Part shown: positions 14,811-64,000 of the stretch, one piece after another
How the letters are laid out: every line of letters begins with the position of its first letter
How positions within the stretch are numbered: the first letter of the stretch is position 1
NCBI GenBank assembly: GCA_030068145.1
Contig: JAPJBO010000070.1
Location: 397,165 to 461,164, forward strand
DNA from: Diplonema papillatum
Lineage: Eukaryota; Euglenozoa; Diplonemea; Diplonemida; Diplonemidae
DNA length: 64,000 nt
Direction of reading: 5' to 3'
The notes under the pieces: model-generated
Told to the model about the DNA's origin: nothing
The model's input: only the letters and a program-made list of their open reading frames with translations
Database searches by the model: none
Program-made: the position numbers and the translations under genes

Positions 14811-15062
14811 GACAATCGTTGCTCTCAAACTTTAAATGGGCGTGAGCTCGGGGTTACTACATTGAACCCTGACGTAGAATCCTGGCGACGCGGGATGAAC
14901 CGAGAGCTGACTTAAGGTGTCCGAGTGATCGCTCATCAGATTCCACAAAGGGTGTCGGTTCATCTTGACAGCAGGACGGTGGCCATGGAAGTTTGCATCC
15001 GATAATGAGTGTGTAATAACTCACCTGCCGAATGCACCAGTCGGCAATCGCATTTAGACTGC
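14811..15062 (+). rRNA. Large-subunit (28S) rRNA fragment, displaced
   Basis: The words CTCAAACTTTAAATGGGCG, GACGCGGGATGAACCGA, CGCTCATCAGA, GACAGCAGGACGGTGGCCAT and GAGTGTGTAATAACTCACC, then CTGCCGAAT, occur in the order and spacing of the eukaryotic 28S central domain. Eukaryotic 28S normally has GTAACAACTCACCTGCC, so a few substitutions are visible. It is truncated on both sides, hence a relic. It overlaps the LSU segment also present at 33.6 kb on the minus strand. Confidence 0.85.
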
Positions 15063-16769
15063 TCCGCAGCTTGTTAATGGGCCGGTGCTTTGAAGTCTCC
15101 GTTGGCGGTTGAGACGGGAGGCGTTTGGGCGCAACTCGGTCAAACAGTCGCGGAGTTTTAACGGTCTGGTCCGGTTGACCATTGGCTGGGTACCGGGTAA
15201 GGGAGGCGAAGACATCTTCGTACGTATGCTTTCACTTTGGCTGGCCAAAGTGAAAGTGTGTAATTGTGACGAATGTGGCCGAGACCAGAGCCCCCACTTT
15301 TCCCCGCTCAGCCAGAATGGTGGCTTCGGCTGAACTTCTGTCACCCTGCTTCTCGGATTCGTAATAAGAAGTTGAAGCTGTTCGATAGTATGGCAAAGAC
15401 GCGATGCGGCTTTGTCTCGGATCAACAATAAGAGAACCCATATACCTAGAAGGAACCAACCCCCTGGGTGGTCTAGTCTGACACCAGCTTTTCCACCCAA
15501 GAAAAACGCGTAACGGTGTGTGGGCGTGTGTGTTGTATGAGAAGGGCACCCCCCTTGAAAGGGGACGTATGTTTGAGAAATGGCACATGTTGTGAGGCAG
15601 CCCACCTTTCTGATACTACCCGACGGTGGACGTGAAGGCCCGGTGTGTGTGAAAGCAACAAGCGTGGTTGAGGATGCAACGCTGAAGCGTCTCGCGCAAG
15701 CATACGGTTTCTTCGTGCCACTTGAAACAAGATAGTCCCTGATGGCTTGGCGCGGAGCTTACAATTATTTGTTTTGAGGGTGAAATTGCAGTGCTTCCCC
15801 AAGCCATCTGTCTATTCTGGTTTCAGCGACTCACAACCTTCCACTGGCCTTCTTTATCGTGGTGCAGTGTGCGGAAGCCATCACGGACGCTGAAAATACG
15901 ACTCAAAGCAGTCACGTGAGTGATTAATGCAGGCTATCCGCTGGCGTTCTAACCACAAGGCGATCAGGGTCTGCCAACGTGCATTGTGGGGCCGATCACG
16001 TCCTTTCTCCGTGCGGCACGGTCGTTTTTCCGTCTCTGTCGGAAAGCGGTGAACTGACTCAATTGGAAGAGCAAGAGTGGCTGTCGTCAAGCGAAGCCCG
16101 GAAACTTGACACATTCGTTCGCTGGGAGTACCCTCCCGATCACGACAGGCTAAAATAACCACGTCAAAGCCCCAGGTAAATGAACGGGTTCGATCGCATG
16201 TAGGCCGGCCGCTCTGGTGCGAGGGGACCGGAGCTGCCACCACTTCAGACCGCCTTCCGGAGCCGGCTGAGGGTTTTCTGCTTGGAACTCCAATTTGTAA
16301 TAAAACAAAGGGCTGGGTTTAGAGAGGGAAAGAGAGGACTTATCAAAACAATCCGAAGGGGCGGCTCCCTGGGTGGGCGGTGGCCACGCCTTAGCAATCG
16401 CAGGGCCTCTCCTCCACGCACCCGCATGCGTCCTCGTAGTCACCGCTACCGCGCTGACCTTTTCCGAGAGAGAGAGAGAAGGGGCGAGAGGAGGTGATGG
16501 TAGCCGATGGTCTTTTGTAAAAGCATCGCTGTTTTGGTGCGCGTCTTCTTTTAGAGTTCTCTTCTTTGAGTTGCAGGGTCCGGAACTTTAGAGTCCCCCG
16601 GGTGACCATCTTTTTGAAGCGTGAAAGGTTTCTTCTTTGTCTTCGTTCTGTCCCTTGGCAAAACCGCTTTGACAACAATGTGGATACTTTACTTTTTCTC
16701 TAAACTGGGGTGCCGGCGTCATTTTCAGAGTTATAGTAGAATCGATACAACATATTATGCCACTGGATA

Positions 16770-33619: not shown

Positions 33620-33945
33620 GTTGACGAGTCCTGCTTACCAGAAGTGGCCCACTTAGAACCAGGATTCTACGTTAGGGTTCAATGAAGTAACCCTGAGCTC
33701 ACGCCCATTTAAAGTTTGAGAATAGGTCGAGAAAGCGATTTCCCCAATGCCTTCAATCATTCGCTTTACCTGGCGTAACTCCTGTTTTGGCTCTAGCTAT
33801 CCTGAGGGAAACTTCGGAGTGAACCAGCTACTAGATGGTTCGATGGGTCTTTCGCCCCTAAACCCAGCTTTGACGAGCGATTTGCACGTCAACACCGCAA
33901 CGGGGTTTCCCCGCTACTCCGCTCTTGCCCCATCTTTGTCACTGT
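33620..33945 (-). rRNA. Large-subunit (28S) rRNA fragment, displaced
   Basis: Read on the minus strand it gives TTGCGGTGTTGACGTGCAAA, GGGCGAAAGACCCATCGAAC, CATCTAGTAGCTGGTTCAC, CTCCGAAGTTTCCCTCAGG, ATAGCTAGAGCC, CCAGGTAAAGCGAATGATTG, CTATTCTCAAACTTTAAATG and GTGGGCCACTTCTGGTAAGC, all in 28S order. It is the best preserved of the three LSU pieces. It overlaps the LSU parts present at 2.1 and 14.8 kb. It is truncated at both ends and next to unrelated DNA, so it is probably not transcribed as rRNA. Confidence 0.9.
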
Positions 33946-51767: not shown

Positions 51768-53649
51768 ATGCTGAAAGCAGTGATTGTGGGAGCCACGCCG
51801 GCGGCTGGACGAACAGGGGCCGGTGAAGAAAGCTGTCTATACTGCAACACGGAGGAACGAGAAACGGTGGAACACCTTTTCTGGAGCTGCCCCGCTTGGG
51901 AGCACTTGCGCGCGAAGTCCGAAGACATAAGGACCATGCAGGTAAACTGGCCCCCGTGTCTGCGCTTGTGCGGGATAGCCCCAGCCCCTCAGGTAGACGA
52001 AAGCATCTCCGTGCTGCCGGCAGAAAAGGAGAAAAGGCGGCATGTAGTGAAGCGACTGCAACTGTTCTTTGTCGAAGTGCTGAGGGAACGCCAGGGTGCC
52101 GACGGCCTGCTCGACAGGTCAGCCCGGCATCACAGGACAGAGAGCTACCCGCGAGGCTGGAGACCAACTGAACCCTGCCGACTTGCAGTCCCTTTCATTG
52201 CACCATCCGCCGTGACAACGAAATGGAAATACGGACGGGAAATGTGGATGGCGTTCACCGACTGGCTGCGGCAGGTGAAATGGGCACCCCCGGGACACGA
52301 CGAGCTGGGCATCAGCTTCATCGAGTTAGCTGTAGAGTTCGAAATGCACACCGGACAGCGGCTCCCTGACCTCAAAAGCAGGTACTATACAGCAGTACCT
52401 CAAGCACAGACAGGCAAGGTGACAGCAGCTCGCACAACGCTAGCGGATGGGGAAATGGGCGACAGCAGGTTGCTTGTGTGCTTCGATGGTGGGGCGAGAG
52501 CGAACGGAACCGCCTTCGCCGTTGCTGGCGCAGGGGCGGTAATGTACCGAGACGGCGTCAAGGTGTCGGAAGTAATACTGCCGCTGCCCACCGTGCGCAG
52601 CAATAACGTGGCAGAGTATGAAGCGGTGCTAGCGGGCCTGCATCTGCTGAACGAAGCGAACGATGCGGACGGCACGCAGTGTACGGTGCGGGGGGACTCG
52701 GCACTGGTAGTGGGGCAGCTTTTGCGACGCCTGGCATGTTCCGAGGAGCTCAAGCCATACCAGACACGCGCTGCCAGAATGGTTTCTTCCCTGCAGCGAC
52801 GGATGACAGTGCGCATCGAGCACGTCAAGCGCGAGAGGAACACGGACGCTGATGCCCTGAGTAACGCCGCCATGGACTTGGTGCAGCGCCAGCGGCCGAC
52901 TCCTCGAAGGCAAGAGAAGATGCTGGCCGACTTTCGCCGGCCCGCCCTGGGCAAAGCGCTTAGCCTCGTTGAGATGGGGAAGGCGTACAAGAAGGTGACG
53001 GGACAGCCGTGGTTCTATGGCCATGAGTACTCCTCCACCGTGCTGACATCCCTGGGAGGGACGGTAGTACGGGGCGTCGCAGTTGTCAGAGGCGACAGAA
53101 GGCATCATCGTGGGGATACGCGAACACGCGCAGGCGGGACTCGCGGACGAACAAGAGAGCAGCCCTTACCCGCCACACCTGAATTGGGCCGCAACCTTCT
53201 TGCCAGAGGAGGCTTACCCGGCAGGATGGACACAGGGAAAACCCGACTGGAAAGGCAGAACGGAAGAGGCCGAGAGGGGTTCAAGCACAGATCCAGAAGG
53301 CGCTGCCAACACTTCCCGCCCTGGAGTGGTTTGCTCGCTCCACAAAAAGCCGCGATGCAGTGAGTGCGTAAAAAAGCGTCTACCGGCGGAGACCTGCTGT
53401 CGCCTCAAGCAGCATCATCACGGATCGGATGGTCTAAGGCCCCGGATGCACTTCTGCACAGCTCACAGACTAGGACGTTGCGGCGATTGTGTGGCTGAAA
53501 ACGAAGCATTAGCCAGCTGCTGCACAAAGCATCACGCAAACAGGAGAGCAAATGGAGGCCCCCACTCCCAGCCCGGGGGTGCATCGGCCGTCACCTAGCC
53601 TAATCTGAGCGTGGTCGTACTTTCGTGAAGGGAGGCACCACGTTAAAAC

Positions 53650-53655
53650 AGGTCC

Positions 53656-53721
<66 letters not shown>
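53650..53721 (+). repeat. (AC)n junction between LINE-A copies 1 and 2
   Basis: About 64 bases of AC. On the left is the LINE-A 3' end (GGTCCGTAAC), on the right the 5' UTR start (AGGGGGAAAAATCCACAC). The junction between copies 2 and 3 has the same order, with GGTCCGCAAC and AGGGGGGAAATCCACAAC. Confidence 0.95.
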
Positions 53722-53723
<2 letters not shown>

Positions 53724-53763
53724 GGGAAAAATCCACACTACACACAAAATCACTAACGAAAAG

Positions 53764-54957
53764 ATGAGCACGGGCGACCTCCACGCGGTTCCCCTGGAAC
53801 CCGGTGCCAGAGCTTCGGGTGACCAACAGCCCATGCCAGTGGTACGTGTGGTGCACTTGCCTGTCTTCAGGCAGTTCTCTCTACATTTGGGAGGACTCAA
53901 AGGCAGGGCAGGGGCGTACGAGGCTGTCATCGAACAGCTCGGATGGGCGGGGGCGCGCGTGAGGATGAGGCGCGGTGTCGCTATCATCGAAGCCGCCACC
54001 CCGCCGCCGGTGACGAGGGTGCGGGTGGGAGACGAGGAGGCCGACGTGGTCGACCTGGAAGAGCGGGAAAAACAGCGCCAAGAGGAGCTGAGGCGGGAGA
54101 AGGTCCAGCGGCTCAAAGGCCACATCGAGCGCCTCGCAGCGCCGGAACACCCGCTACGCCTCCCTGACAACAACATCCCTCGGGGGCCGAGGTACACGAA
54201 GGCCGAGTTTGTCTCGGAGTTCGGAAAGAAGGAGGGCGAGAGAGAGTGGCGCACGGCGGTGAAAGCGCACACCGAGGCAAGGAAGAGGCAAGTGGCGAGG
54301 CTCCAACAGCAGCTTGACGAGTTGCAACCGACTGCCAAAGCCGAGTCGGACGTCGAGATGCAGCAGGATGCAGTACCCACCGGCGCGGAGACCGCAGTTG
54401 CCTGGGAAGCTTGGGCCCAACAGCAGAAGCAGCAACGCCAAGCGTGGGAGAAGGAACGGGCCGTGGCGCGAGCGACATGGGAGCACTCGTACGAGCAGCG
54501 GTTTCTGAAGTGGGCGGAAGCCCAGACCCAGATAGCGAAGGAGCGGTACGACGAAACGTACAAACAGCAGCTGCTCTGGATGGGGGACGTCGAACGCCGC
54601 TTACTCGCGTTCGAAGACGAAACGAACGCGCGAATCGAATCGATGCGCAGGATCCCGAGTGAAGCGCCTCCAGCGCCAGCAATCGGCAATCCCGCGCCCG
54701 CACCCGTTTCACCTCCTGACGACGAACCTCCACGTCAGCCTCTTTCAAGCCAGACATCGTCGCAAACGAGCAAGAAGGGGAAGAAACAAGCAGCAAAGAA
54801 GGAAGCGGAAGAGCAAGAGGCCGAGCTGCTCCGGCAGATGAGCGAGGTTACAAAGAAGGCCGGGAAAGCCAAGGGTGCCAAGGGAAGCGGGAAGCAGCAG
54901 TCCCTTGTGGACATGATGTCCACCGGCGCCAACCGATACAGTCCAATTGAGAAGTAG
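53764..54957 (+). CDS. LINE-A copy 2 ORF1, coiled-coil protein (397 aa)
   Basis: The ATG at 53764 starts MSTGDLHAVPLEPGARASGD. After a DEEADVVDLEEREKQRQEEL segment it is strongly charged and helical (REKVQRLKGHIERL, KRQVARLQQQLDEL, WEAWAQQQKQQRQAWEKERA), so it probably forms a coiled-coil trimer or dimer like other LINE ORF1 proteins. The end is Pro-rich then basic (KKGKKQAAKKEAEEQEAELL) and stops at UAG 54955-54957 after SPIEK. No CCHC knuckle or RRM is seen. Its role would be element RNA binding in the RNP. The stop is in the same frame as ORF2. Confidence 0.85.
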   Translation: MSTGDLHAVPLEPGARASGDQQPMPVVRVVHLPVFRQFSLHLGGLKGRAGAYEAVIEQLGWAGARVRMRRGVAIIEAATPPPVTRVRVGDEEADVVDLEEREKQRQEELRREKVQRLKGHIERLAAPEHPLRLPDNNIPRGPRYTKAEFVSEFGKKEGEREWRTAVKAHTEARKRQVARLQQQLDELQPTAKAESDVEMQQDAVPTGAETAVAWEAWAQQQKQQRQAWEKERAVARATWEHSYEQRFLKWAEAQTQIAKERYDETYKQQLLWMGDVERRLLAFEDETNARIESMRRIPSEAPPAPAIGNPAPAPVSPPDDEPPRQPLSSQTSSQTSKKGKKQAAKKEAEEQEAELLRQMSEVTKKAGKAKGAKGSGKQQSLVDMMSTGANRYSPIEK

Positions 54958-54990
54958 GGCCCCGGGCGTCCTGGACAGGGTGTCGGAGAA
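54955..54990 (+). promoter_or_regulatory. Candidate UAG readthrough site, LINE-A copy 2
   Basis: AAG-UAG-GGC with a GC-rich stretch (CCCCGGGCGTCC) directly after it. ORF2 continues in the same frame with no further stop and no AUG until inside the OTU domain. A 7-bp pairing of GCCCCGG (54959-54965) with CCGGGGC (55089-55095) is possible but far apart, so structural support is weaker than in copy 3. Confidence 0.55.
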
Positions 54991-57900
54991 GTGTGTAAAC
55001 GAGAACCGTCGGCAACAAAATCATCATCATCAGCATCAGTATCATCATCAGATCCAAACAACCGACGACCGAAGACTGTGCACACTGACCGGGGCGCCGA
55101 TCTACACCTGGCAAACAAACCAAGTGCGACAAGGGCGACACAACAAGCCCCATCGCCGGAAGGCACCCTTGGCCTTGGACAACTCCCAACATCACCAGCC
55201 GACAACCAAACCACGCCAGCCCGACGCGGCGACAATCCAAAACCCCAGTCGGCCGGGTCCAAGGCCGCTCAACGTCATCAGCTAACGCGAGCGGAGAGCG
55301 ACGACAAATATATTGATAGTGTGGCCGAGGCGCTGGCCGCAAAGCGCGTGTCGGTGGAGAAGGACGGGAATTGCCAATTCGCAGCTCTGGTAAGAGGGAG
55401 CAAGCTGAGCATCACGGCGGCTTCCATGCGACAGAAAGTGACGTGGCAACTTCGCAATTCAACACCAACCGCATTCGAGACCCAACCATTCTCCGAATAC
55501 CTCTTTGCAGTCGCACAGGATGGTACATACGGGGACCAGATCACGCTGCAGGCCGCCGCAGTAGTTCTAAAGGCGAGCATATGGGTGCTCTCAACGGGGG
55601 ACCTGCAGCATCTAAGGCGAGCGGGGAGAGCTGAGAACCCGTCGCGGGTAATCGTGCTAACCTACCGCCCGCAGCACTATGACGCGCTCATGCTTCCCCA
55701 CACAGGGTATCGGTTACTGGCTTCCTTGCCCCCCGAGACGTCCCGAGTAAGCGTACGAGAGCTAACGTCTGCTGCCGTGTTGCACCCCACCGACGTGGAG
55801 CACGCACCTAAGGACGCAATTGTGTTAGCAACAGTTAATCTTGGCTCCATGAGCACAAAGTATCGAACTGTCGCGACGCTGCCCGCGGACATTGTGGCCT
55901 GTCAGGAAACCCGAGTGGGCCCAGAGGGGAAGAGGACGTGTGAGATGTTTCTCGGAGCGTACGGCAAGAAGTGCTGCTGGGGAGAAGACGTCCCGACAGT
56001 GGTTGGGGCAAACGGAAGAGGACAGAGGGCACCAGGCGGCTCCGCAGTGGTGATAAACAACAGCGTGGTCGCCGCAAACGCACGCCCGAAGACTGAACTG
56101 GAGACTAGACTGGCGAAAAGCACACGGGTGGCTCACGCCGTCGTAGCGACAGGCAATGCTCGTTGCGTTTTGCACGTAATCTCGATTTATGCGCAAGTAG
56201 GGAGAGAAGCAGAGGTTGTCAGGGAACGGGAAAAGTTTATATCGGACGTATTTGAAATGGCGGCAGGGCTCGGGCAGGTACCAGTAGCCATCTTGGGAGA
56301 TTTCAACACACCAGTAGAGGAGAGCGTGTCCCTAATGGCTGCCTGCCGGAGCGGGTGGACAGACGCGGCAGCAGCCGCGGCACATCAAACGTCGCGAGAC
56401 GCACCACCCACCTGCTGGGCAGGAGCGGCAGGCACAAGGATCGATATGTGTTTCCTAAACGCAAACGCGTCGCAAGCACTCGTCGACACCCGGACAGCGA
56501 ACCCGCACGAGTACGACATACCGACTCACTGTCCACTTTTCGTGACCCTAGACATGCGGGCAGCCTCACACCCGAAGCGGACGCATTGGATACCGGCTCC
56601 CTTTCCGAAGAAGGTGCCGCTGTCGACGAAGAAGGAGGAGCAGGACGCACTCGAGGCGGCACTACGCCGGAAACGTTCGGTAGATGGGGCAGAAGCAGCT
56701 CTGCGCAATGCATCAGAAGTGGCGGAGATGTACCTGCTCGAGCTCCACAAGAAGGGCCTTTCTCAGAAAGACGCAGACGGCTGCAAAGGCAGGGCCGAAG
56801 GATATTCCGTTCGGGACGCACATGTCTCTGCACGACAGGCGGTCTCGGCGCGGGGTGCTGTTGATAGGACCACCAGGCAGCGGGACAAGGTACTAGGAAT
56901 GCTGCGAACAGTGGTAGCCGAGGCGAGTCAAAGGCTAGAAAGAGAGCAGCCCGGGGCGATGACTTTGGCCGAGAGAAATGCAAGAGGCGCACTTCAAAAG
57001 AAGGTATCCAGGGGGTACCTGCCGCAGAATGGTCCTACAAGCCACGACGAAGGCGGACGCGACGAGCTGGAGCGGTTATTGGAAATGGTAGAGGTGCTGG
57101 AAGGTTCGCAGCGCGAAGCGGTCTCCGCATTGAAGCAGCAGCGAACGCGGCGGTGGAAAGACCAGATGCAGAAGGCGTGGAACAGCGGTGACAAAGGCGA
57201 CATATACCGGTTTCTTGCGGGAAGTCGAGAAAGCCCATCGGTGTTCCTGCGGCGACGAGACGGATCTCTGACGGCGTGTCCGGGAGAGATCGACGAGATG
57301 TTGAGGGGCCCCGAAGCATGGGGTGGTATCTTTCAGAGGTACACCGACATCCAGGAACCGCAGTGGGAGGCTTTTAAGACGCACTACGCGCGGTACCTGC
57401 CGGCCCCCCAACAAATGGAACACAAGACCATCGGCGCGGCAGACGTTAGCGCAGCACTCAAGCGAATGAAGACGACCTCTTCGCCCGGACTGCACGCGTG
57501 GCGTGTCTTCGAGCTGCGACAACTACCCGCCGAAGTCCTGCAACTAATGGCTGAAGCGATGAACCGAGTCGAGAGCGAGGGGCAATGGCCAGAACAACTG
57601 ATGCACGCGATTCTGCACCTCTTGCCGAAGCCCGAGAGCACAGGAGACCCGCTATCGCAGCGGCCAATATCTGTCACACCGGTACTGTACAGAGTCTGGG
57701 CGGCGATCCGTGCACAAGAGGCCTTGGAATGGATGGATAAGGTAGCGCCCAGCGGGCTGCACGGGTGCCGGAAGAAACATGGGACGGACGACCTAGTCTG
57801 GCACCTCGCAGGTCTCATAGAGCAGGCGCACGTGACGGGGGATCCCCTCTACGGTCTTGGGCTGGACTTTAAGAAGTGCTTCGACTCGGTGCCGATAGAT

Positions 57901-60900
57901 ATCGCCTTCCGGCTAGCGGAGGAGCTCGGGTTCCACCCAACAGTGCTGAGAACTCTGCGAGCGGCCTACTCCAGCATGCAGCGCCATTTCCGAATTGGAG
58001 CCGTGGTCGGAGAAGGCTTCGTACCGACTAATGGAATTATGCAGGGGTGTCCATTGAGCGTGATACTGATAAACGTTCTTATCAGTGTCTGGATGCGGCA
58101 CGTAGCAGACATCGAGGCGACCATTCCGTTGTCTTACGTTGATGACGTTTACGCGTTGATGAAGAGCCTCGCGAAGCTGCAAGAGGCAGCCAAGAGGTCA
58201 GGAACATTTGCGGGGCTGACAGGAATGAAGGTGTGTACGCAGTCGAAGTCCCTGTGGTTCACAACTGCGCGGGACGCTCCGGAGCAGATAGTGTACGCCG
58301 AGAGCAAAGGGAACGAAGAGGCGGACGTACAGCCGGAGACGATAGCAAGGCGAACAACCTTTGACGTACTTGGAGTAATGCTCACGACGAAGCAAGTTGA
58401 ACCGAGCAAGCCGCTCCGACCGTCAAAGCGGGTGGCGCAGCGAAACGCGATGGCCGAGACAGTGTTGAAGAGAGCGGCCTGCCTCCCGCTACCGGCTAGT
58501 GCGCGAGACCTTGCCGTAAGCATGACAGCAGGGGCAAAGAGGTTCTACGGTGCAGCCGTAACGGCGATTGGCAAAGGGGAAGTCGACCGCTTGAGAAGGG
58601 GATTTACGGAGGCGGTATGGACGGGGCCGCCACGACGAGCTCAGGAAGCAGTGCTACACATCCTACACCACGGGCACAGGCTGGACCCGGGAGTCGTACC
58701 GGCCTACAGGAGAGTCACAACCTGGGCCGAACAGGTCCAAAAGTGGGACTACGCCCGAGCGTTGGCGGAAACAGCATGGGCCCACAACGACGAACTGGCA
58801 AGGCTACATGGGCCCTTCGCTTTCCTGAAAGAAGCGCTCAACGTACTCCAGTGGAGGTGGGTGACCCCGACAAGCGTCGCGTACGTGAATGAGGTAGGAG
58901 AAGGAGTCGTGCATGATGCAGCGGTCCTGGGTAATTCGCGCCTCCTGCAACATGACTTGAGACATGCCCTGCGTTTGCGGGAAATGGCGCGACTGGCGAC
59001 AAGGAGGGGAAATGACTATGGAGGCGTCCAGGGCGGAGTCGATTTCGCAGCAACGAGGCACGTTCTGGAAATGCGGAACTCACCACTCACCGCGTACCAG
59101 GCCGGTCTGCTGAGATCGGTAATCGCAGGAGCCACGCCGGTCACGGGACGAACAGGACTAAACGCAAGCGAGTGCCCTTACTGTGACACACAGGTCCCGG
59201 AGACGGTGGAACACCTGTTTTGGGAATGCCCCGCCTGGGAGACAATACGCTCAAAGTACGGGGAGCTAAGAACCGTGCAACACAGGTGGCCGCCATGCTT
59301 ACGGTTGTGCGGGGTGGCTCCCGCTTTCCACGACCCGAATCTCTTACCCACCGAACAGGGAAAGAGGCTTCAGCTGCTTGAGAAACTGCACTTTTACTTC
59401 GTGGAGGTGCTGTCTGCACGTCAAGGGGCAGATGACATGCTGGACAGGTCTACACGGCACCACCGAACGCTTGAGTATCCGCGACGATGGAAACCAGCAG
59501 AACCACACAAACTGGCTGTGCCGGACGTTGCGCCTTCGGCAGTACTCACCCAGTGGAAGTACGGCCCGGAGATGTGGATGGCGTTCACGGATTGGCTGAG
59601 GGAATTGAAATGGGCGCCGCCGGGGCACGAACTCGGGGTAAGCTTTGTGGAGTTGGCGGTGGACTTCGAGTTGCGCACCGGACGCCGCCTCCCAACGCTC
59701 AAAAGTAGATACTACACGGCGGTGCCACAACACACGAAGAAGGCCACAACAGCACGACAGACTCTGCCAGAAGACGCCGCAGCTAGTTGCGATGTTGCAA
59801 TCTACTTTGACGGAGGAGCGAGGGCCAACGGGACTGCCTTTGCCGTGGCGGGCGCAGGAGCGGTACTGTACAAGGAGGGCGTCAAGTACGCACAAATAGT
59901 GCTCCCGCTGCCAAACGTGCGCAGTAACAACGTGGCCGAGTACGAGGGATTTCTCGCGGGGCTGCAGCTCCTGGAGGATGCTGAAGGAACGGAAGGAGCG
60001 CAGTGTGTAATTCGCGGAGACTCGGCGCTGGTAGTCGGGCAAACCACGCGGCAATTGGCGTGTTCAGAAGACTTGAAGCCATTGCTGACGCGAGCGGTGG
60101 CAAAAATAGTGGCCCTGCGACAGCGGCTTTCCCTGCGGGTAGAACACGTGAAGCGCGAGCAAAACACCGATGCGGATGCTCTGAGCAACGCGGCAATGGA
60201 CCTCGTGCAAGGCCAACGACCAACGCGGGAGCAGCAGGAAGCGGAGCTGCAGTCCTTCCGTGCCTCCGCACTCGGAAAAGCGATGAGCCTAATTGAGTTA
60301 GGCTCAGCATTCAAGAAGGTAACTGGACGACAGTGGTTCAGTGGCCACGAAGCAACAACAACGATCTTAACTGCCGTCGGAGGATCAGTTGTAAGGGGAG
60401 CGTCGCGGCGGGCGCAACTTTCGGATGAGACGGACGAGGTGATCCTAGGCATACGGGAACATGTGCAGAAGATGGGCACAGCGCAGGCGGAGACCAACTT
60501 GTACCCGCAGCACCTGACGTGGGCGGCAACCTATCTGCCGGAGAAAGCCTACCCTGCAGGATGGGAACAAGGAAAGACTAACTGGAAACAGAGAGTGGAG
60601 ATGGTAGAGAGAGTAACAGGCGCTGGACCTCGCAGAGGGTCACCACCCAAGAAGGCACCGGAAGACGCGGTGAACACATCCCGCCCTGGAGAAATATGTG
60701 TGCAACACCGGAAACCACGCTGCAAGGACTGTACAAAGAAGCGTTTGCCGGCGGAAACCTGTTGCCGGTTCAAACAGCACCACCGTGAGGGGGACGGCCT
60801 GCGACCACGAATGCTCTTCTGCCCTGCCCACAGATTGGGACGCTGCGGTGATTGCACAGCGGGCGGCCTGGAGATCGTGCATTGCTGCCAAAGGCATCAC

Positions 60901-60957
60901 CCACAGAAAAACACAGACCCCCACGCACAGCCTGGGGGAGCATCTGCAGTAACGTGA
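54958..60957 (+). CDS. LINE-A copy 2 ORF2: OTU-endonuclease-RT-RNase H polyprotein
   Basis: Open from the codon after the ORF1 UAG to a TGA. Residues are numbered from 54991, a GTG that is not a credible start. OTU protease: D125-G-N-C128 and H229. APE-like endonuclease: N283 (ATVNLGS), E306 (CQETR), D437 and N439 (GDFN), D509 and H513 (DIPTHCP). RT: D959 (LGLDFKKCFDS) and Y1049-V-D-D. Knuckle: C1395, C1398, H1408, C1413. Conserved linker: MWMAFTDWLRELKWAPPGH. RNase H: D1607, E1650, D1677, D1729. Cys/His-rich tail: two units from about 1900. It nicks the target, primes and copies the RNA. The OTU part may remove ubiquitin or cut the fusion. The first AUG lies after the OTU Cys, so expression probably needs readthrough. 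Confidence 0.9.
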   Translation, partial: GPGRPGQGVGEVCKREPSATKSSSSASVSSSDPNNRRPKTVHTDRGADLHLANKPSATRATQQAPSPEGTLGLGQLPTSPADNQTTPARRGDNPKPQSAGSKAAQRHQLTRAESDDKYIDSVAEALAAKRVSVEKDGNCQFAALVRGSKLSITAASMRQKVTWQLRNSTPTAFETQPFSEYLFAVAQDGTYGDQITLQAAAVVLKASIWVLSTGDLQHLRRAGRAENPSRVIVLTYRPQHYDALMLPHTGYRLLASLPPETSRVSVRELTSAAVLHPTDVEHAPKDAIVLATVNLGSMSTKYRTVATLPADIVACQETRVGPEGKRTCEMFLGAYGKKCCWGEDVPTVVGANGRGQRAPGGSAVVINNSVVAANARPKTELETRLAKSTRVAHAVVATGNARCVLHVISIYAQVGREAEVVREREKFISDVFEMAAGLGQVPVAILGDFNTPVEESVSLMAACRSGWTDAAAAAAHQTSRDAPPTCWAGAAGTRIDMCFLNANASQALVDTRTANPHEYDIPTHCPLFVTLDMRAASHPKRTHWIPAPFPKKVPLSTKKEEQDALEAALRRKRSVDGAEAALRNASEVAEMYLLELHKKGLSQKDADGCKGRAEGYSVRDAHVSARQAVSARGAVDRTTRQRDKVLGMLRTVVAEASQRLEREQPGAMTLAERNARGALQKKVSRGYLPQNGPTSHDEGGRDELERLLEMVEVLEGSQREAVSALKQQRTRRWKDQMQKAWNSGDKGDIYRFLAGSRESPSVFLRRRDGSLTACPGEIDEMLRGPEAWGGIFQRYTDIQEPQWEAFKTHYARYLPAPQQMEHKTIGAADVSAALKRMKTTSSPGLHAWRVFELRQLPAEVLQLMAEAMNRVESEGQWPEQLMHAILHLLPKPESTGDPLSQRPISVTPVLYRVWAAIRAQEALEWMDKVAPSGLHGCRKKHGTDDLVWHLAGLIEQAHVTGDPLYGLGLDFKKCFDSVPIDIAFRLAEELGFHPTVLRTLRAAYSSMQRHFRIGAVVGEGFVPTNGIMQGCPLSVILINVLISVWMRHVADIEATIPLSYVDDVYALMKSLAKLQEAAKRSGTFAGLTGMKVCTQSKSLWFTTARDAPEQIVYAESKGNEEADVQPETIARRTTFDVLGVMLTTKQVEPSKPLRPSKRVAQRNAMAETVLKRAACLPLPASARDLAVSMTAGAKRFYGAAVTAIGKGEVDRLRRGFTEAVWTGPPRRAQEAVLHILHHGHRLDPGVVPAYRRVTTWAEQVQKWDYARALAETAWAHNDELARLHGPFAFLKEALNVLQWRWVTPTSVAYVNEVGEGVVHDAAVLGNSRLLQHDLRHALRLREMARLATRRGNDYGGVQGGVDFAATRHVLEMRNSPLTAYQAGLLRSVIAGATPVTGRTGLNASECPYCDTQVPETVEHLFWECPAWETIRSKYGELRTVQHRWPPCLRLCGVAPAFHDPNLLPTEQGKRLQLLEKLHFYFVEVLSARQGADDMLDRSTRHHRTLEYPRRWKPAEPHKLAVPDVAPSAVLTQWKYGPEMWMAFTDWLRELKWAPPGHELGVSFVELAVDFELRTGRRLPTLKSRYYTAVPQHTKKATTARQTLPEDAAASCDVAIYFDGGARANGTAFAVAGAGAVLYKEGVKYAQIVLPLPNVRSNNVAEYEGFLAGLQLLEDAEGTEGAQCVIRGDSALVVGQTTRQLACSEDLKPLLTRAVAKIVALRQRLSLRVEHVKREQNTDADALSNAAMDLVQGQRPTREQQEAELQSFRASALGKAMSLIELGSAFKKVTGRQWFSGHEATTTILTAVGGSVVRGASRRAQLSDETDEVILGIREHVQKMGTAQAETNLYPQHLTWAATYLPEKAYPAGWEQGKTNWKQRVEMVERVTGAGPRRGSPPKKAPEDAVNTSRPGEICVQHRKPRCKDCTKKRLPAETCCRFKQHHREGDGLRPRMLFCPAHRLGRCGDCTAGGLEIVHCCQRHHPQKNTDPHAQPGGASAVT

Positions 60958-61016
60958 AACCGGAAGAAGCGTGGACGTCTCTCGTACAGGAAGGCACCAC
61001 GTTAAAACGGGTCCGC

Positions 61017-61017
<1 letters not shown>

Positions 61018-61075
<58 letters not shown>
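61018..61075 (+). repeat. (AC)n junction between LINE-A copies 2 and 3
   Basis: About 57 bases of AC between the copy 2 3' end (GGTCCGCAAC) and the copy 3 5' UTR (AGGGGGGAAATCCACAAC), the same arrangement as at 53650-53721. Confidence 0.95.
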
Positions 61076-61113: not shown

Positions 61114-62342
61114 ATGGATGCGAACAACCTCCACGCGGTCCCCCTGGAACCCGGGGTGAACGCCCCGGGCAACGAAAGGTTCGCAGGAGTGCGGGTGGTG
61201 CACCTGCCCCTGATTGAGCAGTTGGGTGGTCCGGAGCGCGTGTGCGGGTTAGGCGAGGCACCGCGCACGTAGAAGCGACGGCACCCCCGCCTGCCAAGAA
61301 GGTGCGGGTCGGCGATGAAGAGGCCGAGATCGTTGACGTGGAAGAGCGAATTCTCGCTGAACAGGAAGCGAAGAAGGAGGAGCGGGTCCGCAAGCTCCAG
61401 GAGGAGATTGAACGCCTGGCAGCGGCCGGGCCTCCGAGCCGGCTGCCGGACAACAAGCAGCCAAGGGGCCCCAGATACACCAAGACGGAATTCTTGGTAG
61501 AGTTCGGGAAGAAGAGGGGAGAGGCCGAATGGAGACAGGCGGTCAAGGCCGATGGAGAGACCAAGAAAAGGCAGCAGAAGCGCCTTCAGGCCCAACTTGA
61601 TGAGCTGCAGCCCGCAACGCGTGACACCAACGACGTAGAGATGCGGAACGAAATCCGCAGCGACGTGACAACGGCAGCCTGGACTGCATGGGAGGAGCAG
61701 CAGAGGAGGCAGCGTGAGGTGTGGGAGAAGGAGCGGGCTAACGCCCGCGTAACCTGGGAGCTAGCGTTCGAGAAGCGCTTGATGAGCTGGGCAGACGCAC
61801 AGTCCCAAATCGCGACGCAACGCGAGGAAGCGGCGTACGCACGCCAGCTGCTATGGATGGCGGATGTCGAGCAGAAACTGGCCGGCGTGACCGAAGAAAT
61901 GAACGCCCGCGTTGAATCGCTGCTCGTGAGACTAATGGCACTTCCACAGCCGGCGGTACCCCCGCAGCTAGCGGCTTCCTCACAGCCAGCAGTTTCCTCA
62001 CAGCCAGAACCTTCCTCACAGCCAGCAGCCCCCTCACAGCCACCACCGCCCGTCGAAGCCTCACAGCCGGCTGTCTCGCCGCCCGAGCCTTTAGAAGGCG
62101 CCGCACAGGAGCCACTCCCAGGCCAAGCCGCTGCTCAAAGCCCAAGCACGAGGAAAGGGAAGAAGGCAAGGAAAGAGGCAGACGCGAGGGAGCTGGACGA
62201 GCAACTCAAACAGCTGACCGAGGCGACAAGGCGGCCGGTGCCAGCTGGAAAGGCGAAAGGAGGAAAAGGCGGCGGCAAGCAGCAGCTGCTCACTGAGATG
62301 ATTGGCACCGCCAATCGTTTCAGCCCGTTGGAGAAGAAGTAG
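61114..62342 (+). pseudogene. LINE-A copy 3 ORF1, with a deletion and frameshift near the start
   Basis: Starts MDANNLHAVPLEPGVNAPGN, equal to copy 2, then lacks about 20 codons found in copy 2 after VVHLP, and the frame shifts near 61243 (the first frame stops at 61261). From 61242 the second frame is open to the UAG at 62340: acidic segment DEEAEIVDVEERILAEQEAK, long charged helices, a Pro/Ser repeat (ASSQPAVSSQPEPSSQPAAP), then a basic end to FSPLEKK. Unless one base is an assembly error, this copy cannot make full ORF1, although the part joined to ORF2 is open. Confidence 0.75.
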
Positions 62343-62414
62343 GGAGCTGGGCGCACCGGGCAAGAACTGACGGCAAACAATACAAACACGTCAACTGGCG
62401 CTACCCGGTGCGCC
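62340..62414 (+). promoter_or_regulatory. Candidate UAG readthrough site with downstream stem, LINE-A copy 3
   Basis: UAG at 62340-62342 is followed by GGAGCTG and then an exact 11-bp stem: GGCGCACCGGG (62350-62360) pairs with CCCGGTGCGCC (62404-62414), with a 43-nt loop that could form a pseudoknot. The 7-nt spacing and the UAG-G context resemble the known gammaretroviral type of stop readthrough signal. Downstream the same frame is open through the OTU and endonuclease. Confidence 0.6.
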
Positions 62415-64000
62415 AACTCTGGTACAAACAACCAAACCCGACGAGAAGGGGAAGTCGCGAGTGCGAGGCCATCATCATCATCACTTTTTCAAGCCGCAGT
62501 TTATCAACCAACGCCAGCGGAAAGCGGCGACGCGCAGCTGGACGAGGCGGCTGCGACCATTTGTGCGAGACGGGTCCCAGTTGAGAAAGATGGTAATTGC
62601 CAGTTTGCCGCTTTGCTCCGTGGGAGTAAGCTGAGTCTTTCGGCTACTTCCTTACGGCAGAAGGTCACCTGGCAGCTTCGTCACAACCCGCCGGTAGCGT
62701 TCATCCCCGCTGATGTGACGCTATCGGAATACCTCTTCACCGTAGCCGGAGACGGGCAATACGGTGACCACCTCACGTTGCAAGCAGCTGCTGAGGTGCT
62801 CAGAGCGACAGTGTGGGTGCTCTCAACAACGCACCCGGCACTCCTCAGGTGTGAGGGACGGGCGCCAAATGCGTCACGCGTAATAGTCTTGACCTACCGG
62901 CCGCAACATTACGACGCATTGAACGTGCCGCATACCATCCTCCGGCAACTGGCGACAACCGCCCCCGAGGTGTCTCAGATTCCCTTGAGCAGGCTAACAG
63001 CCGTGGAGCAAGCGCCTCGCCACCCAGTTCGCAATGGAGATGCGTCCTGTAAGGATATAGTGCTCGCGACGGCGAACATTGGGTCCATAAGCGCGAGGTG
63101 TCGGACGGTGGCGAACCTGCCGGCGGACATTGTTGCCCTACAAGAAACCAGGGCGGGCCCAGAAGCGAAGAGGACGAGTGAGCTCTTTCTAGGAGCGTAC
63201 GGATGGGACTGCCACTGGGGAGAAGACGTACCGATTGTTGTCGGCGCGAACGGAATCGGACAGCGGGTGCCGGGCGGCACAGCGGTCACCACCCGCGGGT
63301 TAGTTGCCAAAACCACACAGCCTACCACGGAGTTGGAGAAGCGGTTGGCGAAAAGCACACGGGTCGCACATGCCGTTGTAGCAACAGGCAATGCGCGAAT
63401 GGTTCTACATGTTCTATCGGTGTACGCGCCTGTTGGCAGGGAGCAAGCGGTAGTCCAGGAACGGGAGAAGCTCCTTGCCGATGTGTTCGAGATGGCTGCA
63501 GGACTCGGGCAAGTGCCGATAGCTGTCTTGGGCGATTTTAACACACCAACAGGGGAAAGCATGTCCCTGGCGGCTGCCTGCCAAAATGGATGGGTAGATG
63601 CGGCAGCAGCCGCCCAGGAGGGCTCAAATGCCCCTCCATCCACTTGCTGGGCGGGGGCAGCAGGCTCTCGCATAGACATGTGTTTTCTCAACGCCGTAGC
63701 AGCGCGGACGTTGGTGACGGTGGAAACCGCCAAGGCAGGAGAACACGACATCCCGACACACTGTCCAGTGTTTGTTACACTCAGCATCCCGGCATCTACA
63801 CCGCCCGAGCGCGGTCACTGGATACCCACTCCTTTCCCGAAGAAGCCGCCGTTGATGACGCAGGAGGAGATGAGGAGTGTACTAACCACGGCCTTGGACC
63901 GCAACCGCGCGGTCAGCGGAGCAGACGGGGCGCTGAGAAACGCATCGGAAGTGGCGGAAGCCTACCTGACTGGCCTGCACTGGAAGAGCCTCCCGCCAGG
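62343..64000 (+). CDS. LINE-A copy 3 ORF2, 5' part (OTU and endonuclease)
   Basis: The frame is open from the codon after UAG to the window end. There is no AUG until GNARMVLHVLSVYAP, well inside the endonuclease. The linker is Thr/Ser-rich with a Ser run from (TCA)n. OTU: VEKDGNCQFAALLRGSKLS with the catalytic Cys, and the His in YRPQHYDAL. Endonuclease: ATANIGSISARC, LQETRAGPEAKRTSE, VLGDFNTPTGES, SRIDMCFLN and HDIPTHCPVFVT. It is diverged from copy 2 but has every catalytic residue of these two domains, and no stop over 1658 nt. Confidence 0.88.

Follow-up and report, generated by a model that had tools for sequence, protein, structure and literature searches.

How does a long interspersed nuclear element (LINE) make its second protein when both of its open reading frames (ORFs) lie in one frame, parted by a single UAG? 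The question is raised by copy 2 of a LINE in a 64,000-nucleotide (nt) stretch of DNA from Diplonema papillatum, a single-celled protist that lives freely in the sea, here called the window (GenBank assembly GCA_030068145.1, contig JAPJBO010000070.1, positions 397,165 to 461,164, forward strand), and it bears on the long-standing problem of how a bicistronic LINE RNA yields little ORF2 protein. A preliminary description of the window, made from its letters alone, had put forward stop-codon readthrough, and the tests reported here either favor that interpretation or fit it. We regard it as highly likely that ORF2 is made by programmed readthrough of the ORF1 UAG, aided by an RNA stem, to give ORF1 protein and a minor ORF1-ORF2 fusion. 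The strongest evidence for readthrough, a covarying stem 7 nt past the UAG, is new beyond the preliminary description, which missed it.

When translated, copy 2 (53764-60960) is open but for the TAG at 54955-54957 and the final TGA at 60955-60957, and its two ORFs taken from stop to stop, 53647-54957 and 54958-60957 (the latter of 1999 aa), share a frame and adjoin directly. The preliminary claim that the ORF1 stop lies in the frame of ORF2, and that this frame stays open for ~6 kb, is borne out. The parts of copy 2 are as follows.

53764..54957, + strand: ORF1, 397 codons from the ATG plus the UAG; C terminus GKQQSLVDMMSTGANRYSPIEK
54955..54957, + strand: in-frame UAG at the ORF1/ORF2 boundary, context AAG UAG G
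54958..54964, + strand: spacer between UAG and stem, 7 nt
54965..54974, + strand: 5' arm of the stem, GGCGTCCTGG
55089..55098, + strand: 3' arm of the stem, CCGGGGCGCC
54958..55362, + strand: AUG-free linker, 135 codons, in the same frame as ORF1 and ORF2
55312..55815, + strand: OTU cysteine-protease-like domain, with Cys in DGNC (codon 55372-55374) and His in PQHYD
55870..56466, + strand: AP-type endonuclease, PF03372 (Pfam 2.2e-10, above cut-off)
57628..58377, + strand: reverse transcriptase, PF00078 (Pfam 3.6e-18, above cut-off)
59848..60195, + strand: RNase H-like domain, PF13456 (Pfam, above cut-off)
60955..60957, + strand: final stop of ORF2, TGA

Copy 3, a member of subfamily C, was said to share this arrangement. 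The UAG is there, followed by a frame that is open to the window end, but its ORF1 (ATG at 61114) is damaged when judged against the intact copy L023, and only the C-terminal part of ORF1 is in frame with the UAG because of an N-terminal deletion and frame change.

61114..62342, + strand: ORF1 of copy 3, with an internal deletion and frame change near the N terminus
62340..62342, + strand: in-frame UAG, context AAG UAG G
62350..62360, + strand: 5' arm of the stem, GGCGCACCGGG
62404..62414, + strand: 3' arm of the stem, CCCGGTGCGCC
62343..63998, + strand: ORF2, ending at the window edge, with the OTU and endonuclease domains seen

Copies 2 and 3 are members of a LINE group (group I) with at least four diverged, multi-copy subfamilies. 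The OTU-like domain of copy 2 scores under the Pfam cut-off; its assignment is strengthened by relatives whose OTU domains pass (that of L024 and both of L015, with L027 slightly under) and by the Cys and His, which are invariant in eight of the eight domains aligned. Homologous ORF1s are annotated in D. papillatum, and four that were read (P0014-P0017; two E-like, one C, and one D) have as C-terminal residues those that precede the UAG in subfamilies C, D, and E. A short motif (QxxLxxMM, QSTLVGFM) occurs at ORF1 C termini, at 54889-54954 and related loci, which presumably resembles the PCNA-binding PIP box. In L023 (C1480) and C216 the readthrough frame runs to 3584 and 3625 aa, respectively, that is, ~3,600 aa versus the usual 2,400.

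The 271-Mb genome was searched with queries that span the junction and treat the stop as an amino acid, and stops were counted by hand from the matches listed, the best ~150 or so of those scored. Among these, exactly one in-frame TAG is present in 180 of 190 non-redundant junction-spanning rows of group I (29/31 for A, 96/103 for C/D-like, and 55/56 for E), as the preliminary description would have it for the single UAG and its frame. From the A search, 116 of 150 rows that did not span the stop were dropped and so were 3 C/D-type rows, which are among those of the C/D search; the C/D search left out 6 non-spanning rows of 150 and 41 E rows; and for E the first 58 rows, all of E type, were used, 2 of them non-spanning. 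Out-of-frame C-type copies are unlikely to have been hidden by the ranking, since such copies should outrank the distant E rows. Of the group I loci examined, the junction is intact at 10 of 11 in A, at both in D, and at 2 of 3 in each of C and E; L012-L020, being group II, chimeric, or 5'-replaced, were not counted as group I.

Many copies are identical, and the independent evidence therefore comes from subfamilies A, C, D, and E (and E2). Between subfamilies, protein identity is 53-65% in ORF1 and 58-78% in ORF2, and synonymous divergence (dS) over the endonuclease (EN), reverse transcriptase (RT), and RNase H is 1.16 for C-D, 2.3-3.3 for A-C, A-D, and A-E, and saturated for C-E and D-E. The subfamilies appear to be old, with the single in-frame UAG kept despite strong synonymous divergence. 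An ORF2 tree, trimmed at the endonuclease start except for the E sequence (I_E), which was entered whole, has E branching outside C+D and A at supports of at least 98, so the one-UAG arrangement most likely predates all four subfamilies. The nucleotide after the UAG is G in all four. A search of viral contigs for relatives found nothing, and the ENA relatives P0005 and P0006 have unreadable junctions because their proteins start shortly upstream of the OTU motif.

An alternative account of an open frame across a UAG would be that the codon is sense, whether by reassignment (organism-wide or confined to this RNA), by editing, or by a suppressor tRNA dedicated to it. Stop codons are reassigned in Blastocrithidia, a related trypanosomatid (as described in part of PMC12153298), and tRNA deaminase homologues are reported in D. 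papillatum (in passages of PMC10161547). Against this, 69 of 70 tubulin-family matches are free of internal stops (one family was examined; the exception is a 57-residue partial match), ORF2 of the C, D, and E elements closes with TAG, and a sense UAG would need no stem. After the shared ORF2 end GGASAVT comes TAG in copy 1 (where GGASAVT starts at 53575) and TGA in copy 2, as the preliminary description stated. Because the tubulin matches lack internal stops and TAG closes ORF2, we take UAG as a real stop, as had been claimed, and one that is probably not reassigned in D. papillatum. Reassignment was rejected on the tubulin matches, and the sense-codon explanations as a whole seem to us very improbable.

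Downstream of the UAG, the linkers of A, C, D, and E are 135, 82, 76, and 82 codons long, with the frame kept in all; these 375 codons contain no in-frame stop, compared to 6 and 11 stops in the two alternative frames. DGNC, the OTU motif, starts at codon 136 (A), 83 (C), 77 (D), or 83 (E) and the endonuclease motif QETR at codon 316, 267, 261, or 266, and the first in-frame AUG lies at codon 157, 353, 314, or 237, in the same order. No in-frame AUG precedes the OTU Cys in any of the four subfamilies. The claim that both window copies lack one there held up as well: copy 2 runs 414 nt from the UAG to the OTU Cys without an AUG in any frame, and L023, from the subfamily of copy 3, has 255 nt in which the one AUG is out of frame. 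Starting at an AUG would cost C and D the OTU domain and the N-terminal part of the endonuclease, since the first AUG lies past QETR. This bears on the idea that ORF2 is expressed separately, from its own spliced leader (SL) trans-spliced mRNA or by internal ribosome entry. Essentially all D. papillatum mRNAs are SL trans-spliced (according to part of PMC10161547), which makes an extra 5' end possible, but a separate mRNA would have to supply a start codon upstream of the OTU and EN motifs, where C and D have no in-frame AUG, and it would leave the conservation of frame unexplained. We give it scarcely any credence.

The strongest helix scored near the UAG begins at the 8th nt after it, leaving a 7-nt spacer, in all four subfamilies, with a stem of 10-13 bp and loops of 39-114 nt. 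Its arms are GGCGTCCTGG/CCGGGGCGCC in subfamily A, GGCGCACCGGG/CCCGGTGCGCC in C, GGCGTGCCGGACA/TGTCCGGTGCGCC in D, and GGCGCCCCGG/CCGGGGCGCC in E, and the stem is present at the same offset of 7 in E2 (L060) and in a broken D-type copy (L067). Two stem pairs are altered on both sides between subfamilies: pair 6 is C-G in A and E, A-U in C, and G-U in D, and pair 11 is G-C in C and A-U in D. Ranked among all nucleotide positions of the same element, the helix is 8th of 6941 in A, 1st of 6893 in C, 1st of 6821 in D, and 4th of 6731 in E. Codon-shuffled downstream sequences matched it at 2 (A), 1 (C), 0 (D), and 1 (E) per 2000; the four helix tests share ancestry and hence are not independent. 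A chance open frame was rejected on this ranking and the 180 of 190 listed junctions. The leaders of C (90 nt, z -3.8) and E (120 nt, z -5.2) also fold better than all of 200 shuffles each, although whole-leader signals are weaker at lengths other than the best. The pattern UAG-G-N5-GGGCG-NN-CYGG has 193 matches in the genome, compared to 7 for its reversed form; the strings shown, part of the 193, are those of A, C, D, and E, apart from two close variants and an unrelated sequence (C311). Constraint on the RNA itself would be expected to lower dS, and the C-D linker dS is 0.45, compared to 1.16 for EN-RT.

Several observations weigh against readthrough. Among the listed junctions, 10 of 190 do not have exactly one TAG. 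The UAG has been lost at C571:92594 by a frame-breaking change and at C75:11332 by deletion of the stretch that holds it, and C11:310 shows a TAA in a shifted frame with its TAG still present; of the loci examined, L004 (A) carries a frame shift, and indels in the linker leave the OTU domain of L022 (C) and of L026 (E) out of frame. Copies within a subfamily are nearly identical, which reduces the independent sample to four or five subfamilies in one genome. The D fold depends on length, with z of -2.35 at 90 nt (4 of 200 shuffles as good), -1.06 at 120 nt, and 0.01 at 150 nt, and the 150-nt leader of A folds no better than its shuffles (z 0.21; 115 of 200 as good), the helix alone being notable there. 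The spacers of A and E, GGCCCCG and GTCGCGG, are not purine-rich, and type III readthrough is described in part of PMC11166343 as a UAG with a purine-rich octamer and a pseudoknot. The preliminary description had proposed measuring dN/dS across the linker; the values, 0.33-0.63, are just moderately under 1 and point to moderate constraint in keeping with the absence of in-frame stops, but the overlapping stem arms lower dS, and coding constraint becomes strong from the OTU domain onward. For the same reason, that the arms overlap codons, a GxGRxG-like conserved peptide after the UAG may be a by-product of the RNA and not proof of translation. A search for relatives with ORF1 and ORF2 fused returned none at E 0.01, a result that is weak either way because known relatives were not returned either.

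A last such point is that one near-cognate codon, an ACG, is conserved in all four aligned linkers, the only one found to be so. It would suit termination at the UAG followed by structure-aided, SART1-like reinitiation at a non-AUG codon, for instance, the ACG 57 codons into the C linker. Reinitiation is documented in SART1, which has a structure downstream of the stop, and is proposed in L1 (as reviewed in part of PMC5972666). However, ACG is a common Thr codon here, which makes its conservation weak evidence, and the first seven aligned codons past the UAG hold no conserved start-like codon. Reinitiation of this kind also leaves unexplained the shared frame and open linker of four subfamilies and the position of the stem 7 nt past the UAG, and we think it improbable.

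In the programmed readthrough that we favor, ORF1 protein would come from the majority of ribosomes, which would terminate at the UAG. The remaining few, aided by the stem-loop 7 nt past the UAG, would insert an amino acid by means of a near-cognate tRNA and go on for ~2,000 codons, making small amounts of an ORF1-linker-OTU-endonuclease-RT-RNase H fusion, and the arrangement would act as a Gag-Pol-like ratio device. Stimulation by the stem is what we infer, and the same goes for how efficient readthrough is, which residue is inserted, and what role, if any, the OTU domain plays.

A second LINE group carries UGA at this place, with exactly one in-frame TGA in 131 of 138 junction-spanning rows among the matches listed (12 non-spanning rows of 150 were dropped). 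Its ORF1 is related to that of group I by a weak match (hhalign E 1.5e-4, probability 51). Stops read directly are AAA/AAG UGA AG in L015, L019, and C297 and UGA CUG or CUC in C9, C145, and C902, three UGA-CU subfamilies; that of C36 lies outside the stretch read. A pattern for the ORF1 C terminus gave TGACT in the shown matches of the C9/C145/C902-type form (210 matches, many of them unrelated; control, 30). UGA readthrough is suggested for this group, with reinitiation as the alternative where, as is sometimes so, an AUG lies nearby. The group II elements L015 and L019 have an in-frame AUG at most 5 codons from the UGA and a second OTU domain; that AUG is replaced by CUG in C297 and C9 and by CTC in C36, and a Met directly before the OTU domain is common in the UGA group. 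Two group II elements that were folded, both with UGA and a nearby AUG, lack a group I-like stem.

In the ORF2 tree the bodies of group II nest beside subfamily A, which points to replacement of their 5' half, and P0004, a named D. papillatum protein of group II type, stands at zero branch length beside a group II ORF2. L015 and L019 have tandem OTU domains, a 5' half like that of another LINE group, and a group I body, an apparent case of modular recombination. On balance we lean, at somewhat better than even chances, toward a diplonemid superfamily of OTU-bearing LINEs in which ORF2 would be reached only through the readthrough fusion, with branch-specific signals (UAG-G with a covarying stem at 7 nt, or UGA-CU) and with some members having exchanged the entire 5' module together with its signal. 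In that case LINEs would have evolved Gag-Pol-like ratio control independently.

The LINE nature of copy 2 follows from its ORF2, which holds both reverse transcriptase and AP-type endonuclease by Pfam. No long terminal repeats (LTRs) were found: between 53364 and 61250 the sole direct-repeat family of at least 40 nt consists of the 3' end with (CA)n, and its upstream copy is part of the preceding element. The family is a D. papillatum non-LTR retrotransposon (LINE) family that has recently multiplied. Arrays of (CA)n at 53659-53721 and 61018-61074 separate head-to-tail elements, the 3' end of one from the 5' end of the next, as if these LINEs insert into CA repeats; L018 has CA repeats in place of the expected 5' part. 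Elsewhere in the window are fragments of 28S rRNA, at 14917-15067 (+), 33621-33811 (-), and 33828-33937 (-), which match the ~3600 scattered 28S pieces reported for this genome (in part of PMC10161547).

If readthrough is correct, a LINE with a covarying RNA signal would represent a separate solution to the problem of ORF2 dosage, parallel to that of retroviruses, and annotation of such elements should not treat their two ORFs as separate genes. The presence of UAG-stem and UGA-CU variants in one genome, together with natural loop-length variants and broken copies, offers ready-made reporter constructs.

Among known LINEs, Dualen/RandI have OTU-like and RNase H domains, as the D. papillatum elements do, and Dualen has an additional restriction-like endonuclease. 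No precedent for stop-codon readthrough in a LINE was found in a search of the full-text literature, most subscription papers lying outside its coverage. The available portions of two reviews, PMC5009743 (frameshifting) and PMC5972666 (reinitiation), discuss LINEs without it, and those of the D. papillatum genome paper (PMC10161547) mention LINE-1-like models and not stop readthrough. The routes to LINE ORF2 that appear in these portions are reinitiation, stop-start coupling, 2A-like StopGo, and possibly frameshifting or bypassing (PMC5972666, PMC5009743). SART1 and L1 likewise have ORF1 and then ORF2 on one RNA, and SART1 requires a downstream structure (part of PMC5972666). Those elements, however, use an overlapping stop-start or proposed reinitiation at the ORF2 AUG, whereas ORF2 of group I is in frame with ORF1 and has no AUG near the stop, the first in-frame one being at codon 157 at the earliest.

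The closest parallels are with viral readthrough. Like gammaretroviral gag-pol (type III), group I has a single in-frame UAG between structural and polymerase genes and an RNA structure on the 3' side past a short spacer, 7 nt here compared to 8 nt there (part of PMC8310308). It differs in being a LINE with an APE endonuclease, in which no LTR was found, and in that the structure recognized is a long-loop stem, compared to the compact pseudoknot of type III. Type I signals (UAG CARYYA) differ at once, as G follows the UAG in all four subfamilies. Type II signals consist of UGA-CGG/CUA with a stem-loop 6-12 nt downstream (part of PMC11166343); the stem spacing of group I falls in this range and group III elements carry UGA-CU, but the group I stop is UAG and the triplets read after the UGA in group III, CUG and CUC, differ from both CUA and CGG. 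The group I signal is a mixture, a UAG with a stem at 7 nt.

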